Origin: a virus | DNA length: 37,480 nt | Direction: 5' to 3' (one strand) | IMG/VR virus record: IMGVR_UViG_3300031669_000104 | Location: 1-37,480 of that record | Made by a program: the position numbers and the translations under genes | The notes under the pieces: model-generated | Database searches by the model: none | Seen by the model: only the letters and a program-made list of their open reading frames with translations | Told to the model about the DNA's origin: nothing | In this document: piece after piece, positions 2,423 through 35,564 of the stretch | How positions within the stretch are numbered: position 1 is the stretch's first letter | Layout: each line of letters begins with the position of its first letter

Positions 2423-4876
2423 TTAACTTCCTTTAGCATGTTTTACATTTTCGTGTTTCTGAACAGCAATATTAACATCATATGCTTTATTCATAAATCG
2501 TTGTCCATCAAGATTTAATGTAATATCATTTGTCATACTAACTCTGCCGTTGTTTGCGAATTCTACTTGGAGTGGTTTTTTTAATAAATTAGATAATTCA
2601 GCAAAGTATCCACCACCTTTAACATTGGCACTTCCGATTGATTTAACAGCATTCTCCACTGCAATGAAATCATCTTTTGAACCAGATAGCACGGCTTGAA
2701 TACTTTTAAATGCAGTTCCGATTTTTTCAATACCTTCACTATGTTTTGCCATTCTTCTCAAACCATTATTAAATGCCATTAATCCAACAAAACCACCAGC
2801 AGCCATAGCAATTGTAATTGCACCAATACCAGCAGCAACACCAAATAATTCTTTACCAGCACCACCACCGCTTTCATTCATTTTAGCTAACCCTTCACCC
2901 ATTTTACCAATTCCTGTTGTGGCTAAATAAATTCCAGCACCAACTAAAGCAATTGCTCCACCTAATACAATTAAACCTAATGCACTGGCTTCTGCTGCTT
3001 TTCCTGCAAGAGTAATACCAATAGCAGCAATAGGAAATGTTATAGCAAGTGTCATTCCAATTCTTTCCAGAGATTTCGCTTGTTCAGGTGTCAGTTTTGC
3101 CATTGAATCCGCTAATTGACTCAAACCTTTTGCTGCAAGCATGATACCTGCACCTGCACCAGCCATTGCTGCACCAGCACCAACACCAGTGCCCATTCTT
3201 TTCATACCAGCACCTTTTGCAGCAGCACCCATTCCAACACCTTTACGTTGTTCAAAAAGTCCTGATTTACTACCTTTTGAACTAACTGCATCACTTAAAC
3301 TGGTTGTGGCTTTACCACCTATTCTACTCATAACAGCACCACCACCTTTACTAAGAGCACCACTTATTGCGCCAGAAGCAGTTTTAAATATCAAAGCAGG
3401 GACCATCAACATTCCAGCAGCTTTTACCATCCCCCACGTACCTTGTTCAGCAAACTTAAGGAATCTTTCAGCAATTTTTGCGAGTTTAGGAATTAAGATA
3501 GTATTAACTTTATCTAATAACGGAAGTAATGTTGTTTTCAGAATATTAATTGTTGCTTGAAACTTTTCATCAAAGGTCAGTGCTTCTTCGGCACGGTCTT
3601 TTAATAATTTCTGTTCAATTTTAAATGAATCGGCTTGGTCTGAGGTTAATTTACCAATTTCAATCATTGTTCCAGCAAGGTCAACTTGGAATTTACCACT
3701 TTGTTTATCCCATAATGCAGCACCTTCAATAATTTCTTTTTGTTCAGCACTTAGTCCCATACCAGCCATTTGTTGACGCATTCTCTGGACTTCAGCCTGT
3801 CTTTGAGCAATTATTACCATTGAACCCGCTTCCATACCCATCGATTTTTCAACAGCAGCAATTCTATCACGGTCAGCAGGACTTATGAATTTTTCAAAAG
3901 TACCATCACTCATTTTTTTAAAAGTAACAAGACCTTTGGTCATGTCAGCAAGTTTTTCCTGCATTTTTGCAGGGTCATTACGACTAAGATATAACAATTC
4001 AAAAGGGTCGGTTTTTGCAAATTCACCACCCATGATTTGCAATTGTGCTGCTAAGTCGATTGCACCTTCAAGACTACGTGCTACGTCAGCAGCATTAAGT
4101 GCGTCTCCGATGTCAATTTTAAACTTTTCAGCATACATTGCCATTTGTGCAAAACCCTTGACACCCTGTTGAAATGTATATTTATTTAATCTTTTAAAAT
4201 TATCATTAACGTTTTTCAGAACCTTCGTGGTGTTAACACCCATTCTTTCTGAGGTATCCACAACACCCTGAACATAATCTACCATCCCCTTTGCATCAAA
4301 TCCCATTAATTCGAATTGTGCACCAAGTCTGGTTGCTTGTTCAATACCAAGTCCAGTACCTCTACCAATTTCAGTAATATCAGTAACCATATCAGCAGTC
4401 AAAGCACGTGCACGACCAGTTTCATCGGCATATCCTTGCATTATTGCACCAATATCAGCAACACTACCACCAATACTTGAAATATAACCCGCAGACCCCT
4501 TAAAAGCATCACGCATGGCTTCAGCCTTCCCACCACTCATTCCGAGGTTAAGATTAACTGATTTTATGATTTTATCTTGTTCCTGAAGATATTTCCAACC
4601 ACTTTTTAGTTGAGCACCGAGTTGTCGTGCTAAATCAACACCAATTTTTCTGGTTTTAATTTGTTGATTAAGTTGTTTATTAACATCCTCTTCCTTCCTA
4701 ATAATTTCATTTAACTCAGTCTGTAATTGTTCTTGTTGCGCAAGATTATCAGTACCATTTTTAAGACGGTCTTTCTCCAAGTCATTAATAACCTTTTGAT
4801 AATTAGCGATTTTTTCGTGTGCTATTCGTCTTTGCTCATCAATATTTAAACCACTTTTGTCGTCACCTGCTGCCAT
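2423..4876 (-). CDS. Tail tape measure protein
   Basis: 817 aa. The protein sets tail length and sits in the tube lumen before DNA ejection. The N-terminal 75 residues are a charged coiled coil (KIANYQKVINDLEKDRLKNG region), followed by a long helical region. From about residue 480 there are alternating hydrophobic Ala/Gly-rich segments (MLMVPALIF, MAGAGAGIMLAAKGL, IAIGITLAGK, ALIVLGGAIALVGAGIYL type). This layout, the length and the position directly downstream of a two-frame chaperone-like locus are diagnostic of tape measures. It is longer than T4 gp29 (590 aa); if the usual tape-measure rule holds, the tail is longer than T4's. It is transcribed from its own GTATTTATA motif at 4896-4905. 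The alternative of an unrelated membrane protein is unlikely in this context. Confidence 0.85.
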   Translation of the reverse strand: MAAGDDKSGLNIDEQRRIAHEKIANYQKVINDLEKDRLKNGTDNLAQQEQLQTELNEIIRKEEDVNKQLNQQIKTRKIGVDLARQLGAQLKSGWKYLQEQDKIIKSVNLNLGMSGGKAEAMRDAFKGSAGYISSIGGSVADIGAIMQGYADETGRARALTADMVTDITEIGRGTGLGIEQATRLGAQFELMGFDAKGMVDYVQGVVDTSERMGVNTTKVLKNVNDNFKRLNKYTFQQGVKGFAQMAMYAEKFKIDIGDALNAADVARSLEGAIDLAAQLQIMGGEFAKTDPFELLYLSRNDPAKMQEKLADMTKGLVTFKKMSDGTFEKFISPADRDRIAAVEKSMGMEAGSMVIIAQRQAEVQRMRQQMAGMGLSAEQKEIIEGAALWDKQSGKFQVDLAGTMIEIGKLTSDQADSFKIEQKLLKDRAEEALTFDEKFQATINILKTTLLPLLDKVNTILIPKLAKIAERFLKFAEQGTWGMVKAAGMLMVPALIFKTASGAISGALSKGGGAVMSRIGGKATTSLSDAVSSKGSKSGLFEQRKGVGMGAAAKGAGMKRMGTGVGAGAAMAGAGAGIMLAAKGLSQLADSMAKLTPEQAKSLERIGMTLAITFPIAAIGITLAGKAAEASALGLIVLGGAIALVGAGIYLATTGIGKMGEGLAKMNESGGGAGKELFGVAAGIGAITIAMAAGGFVGLMAFNNGLRRMAKHSEGIEKIGTAFKSIQAVLSGSKDDFIAVENAVKSIGSANVKGGGYFAELSNLLKKPLQVEFANNGRVSMTNDITLNLDGQRFMNKAYDVNIAVQKHENVKHAKGS

Positions 4877-4905: not shown

Positions 4906-4922
4906 AAAGACCGAGAAATATA

Positions 4923-5099
4923 CTATCTCGGTCTGAAGTTATTTTTGTTTCGTGCTTTATCCTGCATCTTCTCAATTTCTTCATGTTCTTTTTCTAACAG
5001 GAATAAGAAGTGTCTTCTACGATATATGGGCAGTTTCTCTATATAATCTGCTTGGAACTTAGCGTGTTTGGTCAATATATATATCTCTTCATCGACCAT
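4923..5099 (-). CDS. Small tail-assembly ORF, probable -1 frameshift extension (GT-like T part)
   Basis: 58 codons from ATG 5099 to a TAG at 4923-4925. The sequence includes DEEIYILTKHAKF, then KLPIYRRRHFLFLLEKEHEE and a basic C-terminus. A 'few residues, aromatic, LP-xxRR-xFLxxL-ExE' layout is typical of the downstream (T) frame of tail assembly chaperones that precede tape measure genes. The frame is open upstream of the ATG back to the T9C4 slip site at 5126-5138 and is in the -1 frame relative to the 315-aa gene. The linker would read PQHLAGEYKK before this Met. It may therefore be made only as a C-terminal extension (about 380 aa product), or also separately from its ATG. The region 5099-5138 and the order chaperone, extension, tape measure support this reading. 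Confidence 0.6.
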   Translation of the reverse strand: MVDEEIYILTKHAKFQADYIEKLPIYRRRHFLFLLEKEHEEIEKMQDKARNKNNFRPR

Positions 5100-5116
5100 T
5101 TTTTTATACTCACCCG

Positions 5117-6064
5117 CTAAGTGCTGGGGAAAAAAAAATCGATGCCCACAGATAATTGTGCGTTGAACTTATATCCGTCTTTGGTCTGAAATTCGTAATC
5201 CATATCAACATCAGGACTAACATCAATAATTTTTCTACGAATAGTTAATGCATCAAGTGCTGGCATTGCATCTATAAATTTACCAATATATGTTCTATCG
5301 GTCTTTTCGTCAATACTAACAACATGTGCTTTCAATTTATTTGTACTATATTCACTAAATTCTTGACCATATGCTTCTTGCACGGCTTCGGCATTCTTAA
5401 ATAACATAGTTTCTTCACCAGAAGTAAGTAATTTAAATTTAACGGTTTTCTTACGCATTGGTAATTTGACGGTGAAATTTCCTTGTTCATCAGGTTTTTC
5501 TTTGACTTTTTTATACCTGAGTTTCAGAAGGTTAACGCTTGTTTTAAATAATACATTTGTCCTTGGGTCAGGTACTTGTACACTATATTCTGCACCATAA
5601 CTTGAACTACGTAGAAACAATATAATTGCATTACGGTCACCAGCGAGTAAGTCGTCAGGAAGAATACCTTTAGTTTTTATTTTTCTTTTCAACAGAATAT
5701 CCAATACAGTACCGTTTTCAATTAAAGAAGGTGTGGTAAGTAGGTCTTCGTCTTTTGATGTCATGTATTCAACATTAACTTCTGAAATCTTGTTTTTATA
5801 AAACAAGCCTTTTGACGGCAATTTAACAATTTCATAACTGGTCATTAAATCTGGGTCAGTTTCTTGAGACATCGCTTTTTCATATTCTTCGGGATTAAAA
5901 GTCGATGCTGCTGGTGGTATTGAAGTAGGAACGGCTTCAAGTGGTGCTGAAGTTACTGATTCGGGTGATGGAAGTGTTCCATCATTACGCATTTCCTTAT
6001 ATTTTTTCAACACATCACCAATTGGTTCTCTTTGTGGAACTTGTTTTTGATTTTCGTTTTCCAT
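5117..6064 (-). CDS. gp26-like baseplate hub / tail assembly chaperone protein
   Basis: 315 aa. The first 75 residues are a Pro/Ser-rich flexible region. The core begins at SYEIVKLPSKGLFYKNKIS and continues with EVNVEYMTSKDEDLLTTPSL, LLKRKIKTKGILPDDLLAGD and NAIILFLRSSSYGAEYSVQV. The 'LPSKG-x-FY, TxxxEdLL, DLLxGDRxxIxLxLR' pattern is shared with T4 gp26-type baseplate hub or assembly proteins (from memory of the family, not a search). It lies immediately upstream of the tape measure. It ends FFFPST-stop, where codons TTT TTT TTC CCC create a slip site that would let ribosomes move to the -1 frame and add the 58-aa ORF. A late motif lies at 6102-6111. Confidence 0.6.
   Translation of the reverse strand: MENENQKQVPQREPIGDVLKKYKEMRNDGTLPSPESVTSAPLEAVPTSIPPAASTFNPEEYEKAMSQETDPDLMTSYEIVKLPSKGLFYKNKISEVNVEYMTSKDEDLLTTPSLIENGTVLDILLKRKIKTKGILPDDLLAGDRNAIILFLRSSSYGAEYSVQVPDPRTNVLFKTSVNLLKLRYKKVKEKPDEQGNFTVKLPMRKKTVKFKLLTSGEETMLFKNAEAVQEAYGQEFSEYSTNKLKAHVVSIDEKTDRTYIGKFIDAMPALDALTIRRKIIDVSPDVDMDYEFQTKDGYKFNAQLSVGIDFFFPST
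5126..5138 (-). promoter_or_regulatory. Putative -1 ribosomal frameshift slip site
   Basis: Minus strand T9C4. In the 315-aa gene frame it reads GAT TTT TTT TTC CCC AGC ACT TAG, containing the heptamer T TTT TTC in the correct phase for simultaneous -1 slippage of two tRNA-Phe. After slippage the frame stays open through CCC CAG CAC TTA GCG GGT GAG TAT and continues in frame into the 58-codon ORF. I see no clear downstream pseudoknot, and this is not required in all such sites. Confidence 0.55.
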
Positions 6065-15154: not shown

Positions 15155-15652
15155 TTATAAGTTAAGGATACATCTCCAAGGCTGGATTTCCAAAGTAATG
15201 TTTGTTAATTCATCATTTTCATAATCGTTATCGCCAAAATCAATACTTGTAATCATACATTGGTCTAAAGTCCATTTTTCGACTTCAACACCTGTTGGGT
15301 CTAATGATTTAAGTGTAATGTTTTTCTTATAACCTGCTGCGTAACCCATACGACCTGTAAGTGATTCTGCGTGTAAACGAACCCACTCCATAAGTTGTTG
15401 AGAAGTAGACGGACCTATCGGGTCAAGGAATGTCACTGACATTGTATCCCAAGTATATCTACCAGCAACATAGTTTTGTTCGTTCATATACATAATCGGA
15501 ACACTATTGATTTTCATCGAAGGTCTTTTGAATTTCTGAACTTTCCAAACCTGAATTCCTAATGCATCATCGAATACGGCAAAGAATCGGTTAACTCTTT
15601 TTGGTTCGTAATCGAACGGCATCGTTCTTATCATTGTTTCTTCTGCTGCCAT
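15155..15652 (-). CDS. Tail tube protein, T4 gp19-like
   Basis: 165 aa, close to T4 gp19 (163 aa). It is the subunit of the inner tube through which DNA passes. The body has the expected pattern: PKRVNRFFAVFDDALGIQVW, then KVQKFKRPSMKINSVPIMYM, a 'TWDTMSVTFLDPIGPSTSQQ' strand, LMEWVRLHAESLTGRMGYAA, and a C-terminal LEIQPWRCILN. The 'VxFxDPIxxStSQxLMEW' and 'MxxIDFGDxDYxxDEL' blocks are typical of gp19/Hcp-like tubes. It lies downstream of sheath and acidic protein genes on the same strand, with its own late motif at 15696-15705. Confidence 0.85.
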   Translation of the reverse strand: MAAEETMIRTMPFDYEPKRVNRFFAVFDDALGIQVWKVQKFKRPSMKINSVPIMYMNEQNYVAGRYTWDTMSVTFLDPIGPSTSQQLMEWVRLHAESLTGRMGYAAGYKKNITLKSLDPTGVEVEKWTLDQCMITSIDFGDNDYENDELTNITLEIQPWRCILNL

Positions 15653-15744: not shown

Positions 15745-16083
15745 TTATTTAGGCATATGACCTGTTCTCTGAAACCATCTAAGTTCAGCACGACTTAGAC
15801 TTTCCAATGTACGTGATGCAGGTGCTTCAACCACAGGTTCTTCAACTACAACTTCTTCAGCCACAGGTTCTTCAGGTAGTTCTTCAACTACAGGTTCTTC
15901 AACAACTTCTTCAACCACAGGTTCTTCAACAACCACTTCTTCAGGTAGTTCTTCAACTACAGGTTCTTCAACAACCACTTCTTCTTCTTCAGGTGCTGAT
16001 TCTAATAACGTTTCGTCAACGATTTCGTTTTGTAATTCTTCTTGAGTTTCTTCAAGAACATTCTCTTTATTTTTTTTGCTCAT
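15745..16083 (-). CDS. Acidic Val/Glu/Pro repeat protein
   Basis: 112 aa from the ATG at 16083 (MSKKNKENVLEETQEE). An upstream in-frame Met at 16167 is rejected because it would place the start upstream of the late motif and inside the sheath terminator hairpin. Residues 35-90 are built from degenerate units such as EEPVVEELPEE and VVVEEPVVEE, giving a highly acidic, probably disordered segment. The C-terminal ESLSRAELRWFQRTGHMPK is compact and looks conserved. It lies between the tube and sheath genes, so it may decorate or help assemble the tail, but no function is known. The repeats also occur at DNA level. Confidence 0.6.
   Translation of the reverse strand: MSKKNKENVLEETQEELQNEIVDETLLESAPEEEEVVVEEPVVEELPEEVVVEEPVVEEVVEEPVVEELPEEPVAEEVVVEEPVVEAPASRTLESLSRAELRWFQRTGHMPK
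15824..15996. repeat. Degenerate tandem repeat encoding VVEEP units
   Basis: Repeated variants of GGTTCTTCAACTACA and ACAACTTCTTCAGG (plus-strand view) in multiples of three, coding for the acidic repeats of the 112-aa protein. Such repeats expand and contract by slippage, so length may vary between related phages. Confidence 0.7.
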
Positions 16084-16114
16084 AATTTTTAATTTAAAAT
16101 TAATATTATTTTTC

Positions 16115-16124
16115 CATAAATACT
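16115..16124 (-). promoter_or_regulatory. Late promoter motif AGTATTTATG
   Basis: Minus strand AGTATTTATG, 31 nt upstream of the acidic protein ATG at 16083; nine of ten bases match the consensus. Confidence 0.6.
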
Positions 16125-16132
16125 TAGAAAAA

Positions 16133-16159
16133 GAAAACCCACCAAATAAGTGGGTTTTC
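16133..16159 (-). terminator. Terminator after tail sheath gene
   Basis: Stem GAAAACCCAC / GTGGGTTTTC (10 bp) with a 7-nt loop. Read on the minus strand it is followed by a T-run (CTTTTTC), immediately downstream of the sheath stop at 16180. Confidence 0.7.
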
Positions 16160-16179
16160 CAATTCAAAAAAAAATCACA

Positions 16180-18972
16180 TTATGCACCAACATCGGCAAA
16201 TGATGCACCTGAAGGAGTAATTGTAAATGTAATGCCGATAAATTCAACAGCACGTGTTGGTTTTAAGAAGATTTCTCCATATAACTCATTTCTGTCACGA
16301 GTTTCTGGAGTGTTATTACTGTTATCCATTTTAATTCTGAAGTCAGTTAAACCTCTTTCTCTCTTGATACTATCAAGGATTGGGTTTGCTTTACTCAAGA
16401 ACTGGTCAATGGTTGCTTGGTCGTTTTGCTCAAATACCAGTCTGATTGCGATGTTAGCAATAAGAACTTTGATTTGAAGCAGTAGTCTACGAACATTGAT
16501 TCTGTCAAGAGCACTTTCTCTGACTTGAAGAGTCTTTTGTCCGAAAATTGCAGTTCCAGCGTCAGCAAAGTCAGCCATTGGGTTAACTCTACCAGCGTAA
16601 AGAATATCACGTGCTTCCAAAGAAAGTTTATATTGTGATTTTCTTGCATTGGTTACACCACGGTTAAGACCAGCAGGTGCAAACCAAGGGAATGAAACGT
16701 TATCAGTAAACGCCATTGCTTTCACAACTTCACCAGTTGCAGGAATATAAACATTAACGTTATTCTGAGTGTCACGTATCTGAATCCAAGGATAATAAGT
16801 ACATGCGTAACTACTATCAATTTCAGTATCATCTAAATATCTAATAATTTGGGTAGCAGCATCAACATCAGCCTTACCACTATCACCAACTGTTGGTAGA
16901 TTATCAATGCTTGCTTGTGGGGCATCGATAACATATAAAGTATCAGTTCTCTGTTGTTCAATCATATCGATTGTATTCTCAACCAATGTTGTTTGGAATG
17001 CCCAATTTATGCCCGGAGTTGCAAAAAGGTTAATTGTAACGTTCTCAGGATTTGCAAAAGTATCGATTGCCAATTCCCATGCTTGGAAGTCGTTGGTTGG
17101 AACAACGAGAGGTTGTCCCGGATGACCAGACTTTCTTCCACCTTGCACATAATCATTACCATATGAACGTACTCTTCTATTTACATCCCAACCATCAAAA
17201 CCACCAGCAGGAACTACTGTAAATTTCCTTGTCTTTGGATTATAATAAGGACTTGTTTGAACATCAACATCAGCAGCAGTCTGGAATTTTCCAGCACCAC
17301 CAATGAACTCAGTTGCACCTGTTATAATTGTTGCTCCAGAATCCATGTGGAATCCTTTGGTTTTTGTAAAACCACTTGAAGCCTGTCCACTATAAAAATT
17401 ATCAAAATTGAAGAAATTCTGGTTGATGCCATCACCAGTATAAGCAAGTTCAGAAATACCTAAGTATGTCTTTGCGATTTTATCGGTATCAGCATAACTG
17501 GTTTTATAGAAAATTGCAGGTGCAATACCTTCACTTACCGTATCGTCAGTGACCGCCTCACTATAATTATTAAACATGAATCCTTCAAAACCTGCTGGGA
17601 ATACATCAAGAGGAAGTTCTTCTGCGATTTCAACCATAACATAGTTACTTAAAAGACTGTATTCACCATCACTTGTACCGATACGCTGTCCAATGTAATT
17701 TAAAGCACCCTTAATCATAGTGTTTTTTGAAAATGTTTCCAATACAATTGGATTCGCATCTGTGTCATAGAAACTACGGATTACAACATCAAATTCTCCA
17801 GAATATGGGTCAATGTTTCCAATAGTAATTTTAATTTCTTGGTTCGCACTGTCGCCATCAGAAATAGTAATAAACTTAAAAAGTCTGTCAACACTATTAC
17901 CTTTTAATTGAGATACAACCCAAGGAGTTTCTGGTGTTTGAAAACCGACTTCGTAATCAGTAAAATAATCGGTAGTACCTGTAACCATTAATGTGTTAAT
18001 ACCGTAAGCAATGCCATCAGCATCAAGTTTCTTAATGAGGTCAGGATAAATTGCCTGAACCCAAATCATTGTACTTTTGTCTTTTGGTTCGTAACCAATT
18101 ACATTTGGTAGAAAATTACTGCTATTTGAATTTAATGATGCCTCATAGGTCGCAGAAGTTCCACTATATGCCGAACCAGTATCAGTGTTTGCAGCAGTTA
18201 ATATAAATTTAGCATAAATATCACCAGTTGGACTCAGCACGCTATCAATTGTGTCATTAGTGGTTATATTAAGTTCATTTGTTAGGAAGTCGGTCACTGG
18301 AACAGAATCATAATCAGTATTTGAATCACCTCTACTTCTGATTACGGCAAGAACCATACCCTCATAATCACTTAATGATGCTCCTGAATATATTGTTGTA
18401 TTACCACTAACAGTACCGCTTGAAGTTTGGGCACTATATGTTAATACTATGAAATTTTTAATTGTGTTAGTGAAAATGTTTGTCAGAGTATTCTTTTCCC
18501 ACCCACTTTCATAAGTACCAGTAACACCAACTCCACCAGCAGCCACACCTAAGAAATTATTATCAGTAAAGCCTGATAATGGAAATGTACTTGATGAAGT
18601 TATACCTGTATAACCTGAAGATGTATTAACACCTGCTGTCATTGTTATGTTCCAAGCAGTTCCTGCTTGATATCCACTGAGTCCCAGAACTCTGGTTACC
18701 CAAAGTTGCTGTGCTTCTTCCAAGAAGGAGTTAGCAACATATGGTAATTGATATTTTAATGTTTTATCTGAGTCTTGAAATCTTTTAGTGCTTTGTGCAC
18801 CAAATCTTTCTGAGAACTGAGTTTGGTCTTGGATGAAGATTGGTTCGAAAGCGGGACCCTTTAAGGTTTCGCCAGCCAATCCCAAAGTTGTTATACCTAC
18901 ATTACGTGTTACGTAAGTCAGGTCACGTTCTTTAAATTTTACACCCGGTGAGGTAAATACAAAATCTGCCAT
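16180..18972 (-). CDS. Tail sheath protein, T4 gp18-like
   Basis: 930 aa; the contractile sheath subunit. The N-terminus ADFVFTSPGVKFKERDLT and 'GLAGETLKGPAFEPIFIQDQ' are typical. The C-terminal domain is unmistakable: TLQVRESALDRINVRRLLLQ, IRLVFEQNDQATIDQFLSKA, then NNTPETRDRNELYGEIFLKP and TRAVEFIGITFTITPSGASF. It is much longer than T4 gp18 (659 aa); the extra length lies in the middle (about residues 120-300 and 480-620), which should form surface-exposed insertion domains. It starts with ATG 18972 after a 63-nt leader behind the late motif at 19036-19045 and ends in a hairpin terminator. Confidence 0.9.
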   Translation of the reverse strand: MADFVFTSPGVKFKERDLTYVTRNVGITTLGLAGETLKGPAFEPIFIQDQTQFSERFGAQSTKRFQDSDKTLKYQLPYVANSFLEEAQQLWVTRVLGLSGYQAGTAWNITMTAGVNTSSGYTGITSSSTFPLSGFTDNNFLGVAAGGVGVTGTYESGWEKNTLTNIFTNTIKNFIVLTYSAQTSSGTVSGNTTIYSGASLSDYEGMVLAVIRSRGDSNTDYDSVPVTDFLTNELNITTNDTIDSVLSPTGDIYAKFILTAANTDTGSAYSGTSATYEASLNSNSSNFLPNVIGYEPKDKSTMIWVQAIYPDLIKKLDADGIAYGINTLMVTGTTDYFTDYEVGFQTPETPWVVSQLKGNSVDRLFKFITISDGDSANQEIKITIGNIDPYSGEFDVVIRSFYDTDANPIVLETFSKNTMIKGALNYIGQRIGTSDGEYSLLSNYVMVEIAEELPLDVFPAGFEGFMFNNYSEAVTDDTVSEGIAPAIFYKTSYADTDKIAKTYLGISELAYTGDGINQNFFNFDNFYSGQASSGFTKTKGFHMDSGATIITGATEFIGGAGKFQTAADVDVQTSPYYNPKTRKFTVVPAGGFDGWDVNRRVRSYGNDYVQGGRKSGHPGQPLVVPTNDFQAWELAIDTFANPENVTINLFATPGINWAFQTTLVENTIDMIEQQRTDTLYVIDAPQASIDNLPTVGDSGKADVDAATQIIRYLDDTEIDSSYACTYYPWIQIRDTQNNVNVYIPATGEVVKAMAFTDNVSFPWFAPAGLNRGVTNARKSQYKLSLEARDILYAGRVNPMADFADAGTAIFGQKTLQVRESALDRINVRRLLLQIKVLIANIAIRLVFEQNDQATIDQFLSKANPILDSIKRERGLTDFRIKMDNSNNTPETRDRNELYGEIFLKPTRAVEFIGITFTITPSGASFADVGA

Positions 18973-34769: not shown

Positions 34770-35564
34770 ATGGGATATATTTATTCATTAATTGACCCTC
34801 GTGATAATAAGGTAAAATATGTTGGTCAAACAAGATTTAAATTAGAAAAGAGATACAAAGAACATTTAAGAAATTCTAAATATCAGGCAACAAAAAACCA
34901 TAATGTTTATTGTTGGATAAATGAGTTGGGTTTAAATGGTTTAACGCCAATAATTCAGAAAATTGAAGAAATTGATATTAAACAACTAAATAAAAGAGAA
35001 AAATATTGGATTTCAAAATATGGTGATGATTTAAAAAATATGACTGTTGGTGGTGATGGAATTAAATATGTTAATAAGAGAAAGTTTTCCGACACACACA
35101 GAAAGAGAATCGGTGATTCTTGTAGGGGTGATAAACATTACAATTATAATAAACCAGCAAAAAATATAAAATCAGTTTTAATGTTTGATGTGAATGGAGA
35201 TTTCTTAGAAGAATTCTCATCAATTAAAATTGCATCAGAAAAAACAAAAATAAAATTATCTGGAATTAGTAATTGCTTAAATGGAAGAAGAAATTCGGCA
35301 GGTGAATATCTTTGGATTTTTAAAAATGAATTTACTGATGAATTTTTAAAAAAGAAAGTTTTGAATTCGAAAATCAATCCGACCAATAAAAGAAAAAGTA
35401 TTAGTGTTTTAAAAATTAATATTGAAACAAATGAAATTGTTGAGGAATATCAATCATATAAAGAAGCAGCCAGAATGAATGGAACATCAGATGTTACCAT
35501 AAAATATGTTTCTCTTAAAAGTAAAACACATATATTTAATAATCATAAATGGTTAATAAAATGA
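34770..35564 (+). CDS. GIY-YIG homing endonuclease with NUMOD repeats
   Basis: 264 aa. The N-terminal catalytic domain MGYIYSLIDPRDNKVKYVGQ has the GIY and YVG(YIG) elements, followed by TRFKLEKRYKEHLRN (Arg) and LNKREKYWISKYGD (Glu). The central FSDTHRKRIGDSCRGDKHYN is a NUMOD3-like DNA-contact motif, and two NUMOD1-like units follow (VLMFDVNGDFLEEFSSIKIA with SGISNCLNGRRNSAGEYLWI, and VLKINIETNEIVEEYQSYKE). It is a free-standing endonuclease that nicks or cuts an unoccupied site and spreads by homing. There is no intron in the flanking helicase gene. It is coupled by ATGA to the following small gene. Confidence 0.85.
   Translation: MGYIYSLIDPRDNKVKYVGQTRFKLEKRYKEHLRNSKYQATKNHNVYCWINELGLNGLTPIIQKIEEIDIKQLNKREKYWISKYGDDLKNMTVGGDGIKYVNKRKFSDTHRKRIGDSCRGDKHYNYNKPAKNIKSVLMFDVNGDFLEEFSSIKIASEKTKIKLSGISNCLNGRRNSAGEYLWIFKNEFTDEFLKKKVLNSKINPTNKRKSISVLKINIETNEIVEEYQSYKEAARMNGTSDVTIKYVSLKSKTHIFNNHKWLIK

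Follow-up and report, generated by a model that had tools for sequence, protein, structure and literature searches.

In 37,480 nt of viral DNA (IMG/VR record IMGVR_UViG_3300031669_000104, positions 1 to 37,480; hereafter the window), a gene for a T4 gp26-type protein ends on the minus strand in a run of T and C residues, and a small open reading frame (ORF) follows in the -1 frame. This raises the question whether both frames encode one tail assembly chaperone in a short (TAC-N) and a long form (TAC-NC), or whether the small ORF is a gene of its own. A preliminary description of the sequence had proposed a programmed -1 frameshift fusing the gp26-type protein to the small ORF beside a probable tape measure gene, similar to G/GT of phage lambda, and had regarded this as new; the frameshift reading held, the claimed novelty did not. 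The locus comprises the following features:

5117 to 6064, minus strand: TAC-N, short tail assembly chaperone, 315 aa, PF12322 (T4 gp26/gp51 family; 35.9 bits), phrog_150, 27 IMG/VR homologues
5126 to 5138, minus strand: slip tract T9C4 (T9, 5138-5130; C4, 5129-5126)
5138-5132, 5135-5129 and 5132-5126, minus strand: in-phase heptamers T_TTT_TTT, T_TTT_TTC and T_TTC_CCC within the slip tract
4923 to 5138, minus strand: -1 frame extension, 71 codons plus stop, FFFPQHLAGEYKKM...NNFRPR, predicted C-terminal part of TAC-NC, open in 28 of 28 distinct loci
4923 to 5099, minus strand: 58-aa ORF inside the extension, own ATG at 5099-5097
2423 to 4876, minus strand: downstream gene, 817 aa, probable tape measure protein, judged by place and size across the clade and by the annotation of relatives

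The 3' end of the 315-aa gene reads GAT TTT TTT TTC CCC AGC ACT TAG on the minus strand. Three slip-type heptamers are in phase, so that T9C4 allows more than one slip codon. Over the T run the zero and the -1 frame both read DFFFP, and the product is therefore identical up to the proline, whatever the slip point in the run. The predicted fusion (...GIDFFFP-QHLAGEYKKMVDEEIYIL...) comprises 380 aa up to the stop codon at 4925-4923, shares residues 1-309 with the short form and has the predicted junction-spanning peptide ...DFFFPQHLAGEYK. Inspection of the sequence thus confirmed what had been described before: the gene on the minus strand (6064-5117), T9C4 and its slip phase, the open -1 frame entering the 58-codon ORF with a product of about 380 aa, and the predicted fusion peptide FFF-PQHLAGEYK. 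In the whole window, only two A/T runs of 9 nt occur.

Relatives were collected by a scan of IMG/VR (27 loci), by a profile scan (more loci) and from a Bacteroidota metagenome-assembled genome (MAG; one locus). All 28 distinct window-clade loci keep the tract GA[T/C]T7[T/C]CCC, the zero-frame stop 21 nt beyond it, and an open -1 extension of 65-77 codons (48 codons in L010, where the contig end cuts the locus off). The preliminary description had named slip site and open -1 frame as the things to look for in homologues, and both are kept in 28 of 28; the joint conservation is far beyond chance. The slip codons TTT, TTT and TTC are conserved in 28, 28 and 27 of the 28 loci, while phenylalanine codons elsewhere in the gene are used at a TTT:TTC ratio of 80:20. 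With a codon entropy of zero, compared with a median of 0.97 for conserved columns, they are the least variable conserved codons of the gene. Sequencing errors are frequent in homopolymer runs, and an open frame beside such a run could be due to chance or to faulty assembly; this explanation is refuted by the agreement of 28 distinct loci from many assemblies on phase and -1 peptide, which leaves it a negligible probability. In L010 and L025, a -1 frame stop lies directly 5' of the T run, so that an earlier shift is impossible there.

The linker of seven codons that separates the zero-frame stop from the start codon of the 58-aa ORF shows a pN/pS of 0.13 in the -1 frame and values above 4 in the other frames, where no such pattern exists; after the ATG, pN/pS in the -1 frame is 0.23. 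The linker is thus under purifying selection in the -1 frame, and more strongly so than the ORF itself, which speaks against a separate gene that starts at its own ATG behind an incidentally open linker. Such a gene would agree with the ATG and A-rich leader found in 25 of the 28 loci, and with the cyanophage-type relatives, in which the ATG of the small ORF is kept in all 56 distinct loci and the ORF is annotated as a gene. The remaining three loci of the window clade, however, have TTA, TTG or ATA in place of the ATG, and one relative (L043) encodes the fusion in frame. Since the ATG is missing in three loci and the linker is under purifying selection, the conserved unit is the fusion, and we consider the 58-aa ORF very unlikely to be just a separate gene; its product could exist in addition to the fusion, not as the only one. 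None of the 28 loci has lost the T run or carries a stop in the linker, and conservation does not begin only at the ATG; these were the findings that would have refuted the proposed frameshift. Searched alone, the 58-aa ORF of the window gave no family match.

Downstream of the slip tract, the RNA may form two nested helices with the following arms:

5115 to 5122, minus strand: outer helix, 5' arm, ACUUAGCG, 6 nt past T_TTT_TTC (pair counts on 27 loci)
5057 to 5064, minus strand: outer helix, 3' arm, CGCUAAGU (pair counts on 27 loci)
5092 to 5098, minus strand: inner helix, 5' arm, UGGUCGA (pair counts; RNAalifold)
5069 to 5075, minus strand: inner helix, 3' arm, UUGACCA (pair counts; RNAalifold)

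A spacer of 6 nt between slip site and RNA structure is usual for ribosomal -1 frameshifting. Across 27 loci, 88.9% of the cells in the two helices are paired, versus at most 47% in slid controls. Changes on both sides of a pair number 24, compared with 10.1±3.3 in shuffles (0 of 500 as high) and at most 6 in slid controls; the shuffle control ignores relatedness, and the slid controls therefore weigh more. The mean folding z of the helix stretch is -1.95, while the other windows of the neighbourhood range from +0.3 to -0.8, save one. The inner helix was recovered by RNAalifold unprompted. The outer helix was picked from single-sequence folds and then counted, so that its choice leaned on the window sequence, and it is partly broken in divergent loci, e.g. 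L021, L023 and L041. In the RNAalifold consensus over the whole stretch, the T run pairs with an A run; after trimming of the stretch, a local run of RNAalifold found no structure, and Rfam gave no match. The two helices would probably delay the ribosome and favour slippage.

This structure also bears on the possibility that RNA polymerase, rather than the ribosome, slips on T9, so that some mRNA molecules gain a base and the same two proteins result. Runs of eight to nine T are long enough for this, all window-clade loci have a run of at least eight, and no single heptamer is common to all of them (L016 keeps only T_TTT_TTT, which L018 lacks). Against polymerase slippage stand the compensatory changes in an RNA structure at the usual ribosomal distance, and relatives with short runs that use the same junction, namely the cyanophage-type loci (T6C) as well as Atu_ph07 and Rhizobium IC12 (both T TTT TTC). 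We therefore regard polymerase slippage as unlikely, though less so than a separate gene.

The PF12322 match of the 315-aa protein lies above the cut-off of 24.5 bits, and 14 of 16 aligned members match this family, as do both T4 gp26 and T4 gp51. T4 gp26 is homologous to the N-terminal part of gp51 (99.3%), which has an additional C-terminus; T4 thus has the short and the long form as two genes. Direct profile comparisons by hhalign were not significant, neither for the window-clade extension versus the gp51 C-terminus (5.8%) nor for A1 versus T4 gp26/gp51, and intermediates were therefore used. The window-clade extension matches the cyanophage-type extension (83.6%, E 8e-6), the latter matches the gp51 C-terminus (97.4%, E 1e-11), and residues 315-366 of the in-frame relative L043 match phrog_634 ("baseplate hub assembly catalyst"), the same C-domain. 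Judged by these cyanophage and L043 intermediates, the extension belongs to the gp51 C-terminal domain. A confident AlphaFold2 model of the L043 fusion (35 rows; pLDDT 85.5, pTM 0.79) has a helical C-domain and matches predicted gp26-type baseplate hub proteins from many phages. A PDB search with this model gave no significant match; among the PDB matches was 2ob9, the tail chaperone of HK97 (E 2.7, probability 0.33, TM-score by target length 0.48). A gp26-type protein with 34% identity was also observed in the 2.8-Mb sequence of a WOR-3 bacterium chromosome (CP070664.1), where it belongs to a prophage or a related tail-like element.

The gene order agrees with a tail chaperone. Across the clade, the extension is followed after 35-88 nt by a gene that, where complete, encodes about 820-855 aa, and named relatives have an annotated tape measure at the corresponding place, which makes the 817-aa gene of the window a probable tape measure gene. 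Its protein had no family match of its own, and a BLASTP hit to an annotated tape measure was rejected as a match of composition only. Further tail genes are present in the window:

15155 to 15652, minus strand: gp19-type tail tube
16180 to 18972, minus strand: tail sheath

The window is thus a fragment of a contractile-tailed phage. One 67% match lies in a Bacteroidota MAG, which is no more than a hint at a Bacteroidota host. Several other elements were observed. A strong hairpin of 9 bp (GACCGAGA...TCTCGGTC), followed by TTTTG, lies at 4909-4933 (minus strand) just 5' of the probable tape measure gene and contains the stop codon of the extension; this place folds strongly throughout the clade (mean z -4.08) and may be a terminator, an attenuator or a processing site. 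A small acidic protein with EEPVVEE-type repeats and no family match is encoded at 15745-16167 (minus strand), flanked by the genes for the tail sheath and the tail tube. The only other 9-nt A/T run of the window (16166-16174) lies just past the stop of the sheath gene and is followed by a hairpin (AAAACCCAC...GTGGGTTTT). A GIY-YIG homing endonuclease with NUMOD domains (34770-35564) adjoins a UvrD-type helicase gene.

Given its conservation, the selection acting on the fusion frame, the covariation in the RNA, the homologies and the order of the genes, the locus is very probably the -1 frameshifted TAC-N/TAC-NC gene of a contractile-tailed T4-like phage. Standard translation would give the 315-aa TAC-N, while some ribosomes would slip back by one base on U8-9(C), probably slowed by the downstream two-helix RNA, which would promote the slip, and continue in the -1 frame to the 380-aa TAC-NC, which ends in a helical domain homologous to the C-terminus of T4 gp51. 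Both forms would presumably hold the tape measure protein during assembly of the tube, like lambda G/GT. We infer the slippage itself, its rate, the slipping of the ribosome rather than of RNA polymerase, and the action as a chaperone.

Of the loci in the wider family, 72 have the homologous extension in the +1 frame, 34 in the -1 frame (the assignments of L053 and L080 being doubtful and that of L035 uncertain) and one in frame. The junction reads TTT TTT TGG CCN (+1) in most relatives and TTT TTT TTC CCM (-1) in the window clade. An FFxP-type motif, its proline codon being CCT, CCA or CCC, precedes the junction in the 71 distinct +1 loci, and 60 of them have no ATG within the first 15 codons of the extension. 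A -2 shift on a T7 run was considered for these relatives and rejected: it fails where the T run is absent (L029, L031, L065), and +1 at the proline codon still fits there. L053 and L080 are members of the +1 group with the extension in the -1 frame and without a clear slip site; they may represent indel errors or a further variant. In 56 of 56 distinct cyanophage-type loci, the gp26 homologue has an in-phase T TTT TTC at its end, and in 54 of the 56 the -1 frame runs more than 120 nt beyond the stop. An N-domain tree places the window clade (-1) amid +1 lineages, apart from the -1 group of cyanophages, XacN1 and Atu_ph07; well supported branches force at least two changes of direction, and several long branches leave the deep order unsure. 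L043 has one extra base compared with its kin and exists as a single copy in a 95-kb record, and its in-frame fusion may be an assembly error. Taken together, the direction of the frameshift has probably flipped between clades of one tail chaperone family while the fusion point stayed fixed, with L043 in frame and T4 with two genes.

T4-like tail chaperone genes have been identified by Vladimirov, Gautam and Davidson (Virology 2022;566:9-15). One later paper cites that study for short and long forms encoded by separate genes in some T4-like phages, and another cites it for poly-T -1 signals in T4-like TAC-N genes. From these citations, the kind of system was already known, and the locus is a well supported further case; a gp26-type frameshift undescribed in T4-like phages and a new link from the gp26 family to tail chaperones, as the preliminary description had it, are not borne out. 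The novel part may be the switch of direction, as most relatives carry the extension in +1, behind a proline codon located at the same junction; none of the papers found describes a +1/-1 switch. If the flip is true, the family forms a natural series (-1 on T9CCC, -1 on T6C, +1 following FFWP, an in-frame fusion, and two genes in T4) in which the evolution of recoding direction becomes testable. The locus also supports T4 gp51 as a long tail chaperone; a review lists T4 gp26 and gp51 as hub assembly chaperones, and gp51 had long been recorded as a factor essential for assembly but of unknown function. Gene callers divide the locus in two, a "baseplate hub" protein plus a small ORF that is labelled hypothetical or missed altogether, and the proper annotation would be one frameshifted tail chaperone.

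Among known systems, lambda G/GT, whose long form reportedly arises by a -1 frameshift (work attributed to Xu, Hendrix and Duda), likewise has a short and a long form and a -1 shift close to the 3' end, and is followed directly by the tape measure gene, in the window a probable one; its slip sequence is different and no sequence similarity is shown, and the window is from a contractile-tailed T4-like phage. TAC-N/TAC-NC of T4 belongs to the same protein family, with gp26 as short and gp51 as long form, but T4 itself has two separate genes where the window has a single frameshifted one. The tail chaperone of the Vandenendeviridae phage Adele resembles the window in the short ORF before the tape measure and in a T-rich -1 signal near the end of TAC-N, with the -1 frame open in every allele, while its motif is GTTTTT instead of T9CCC and it belongs to a different phage family (PMC12846349). 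In the cyanophage-type loci such as that of Synechococcus phage Sf-FS3, which have gp26 and a small ORF named "baseplate hub assembly catalyst", the -1 extension is, as in the window, homologous to the gp51 C-terminus, whereas the run is T6C instead of T9C4 and the fully kept ATG of the small ORF makes a separate product also possible.
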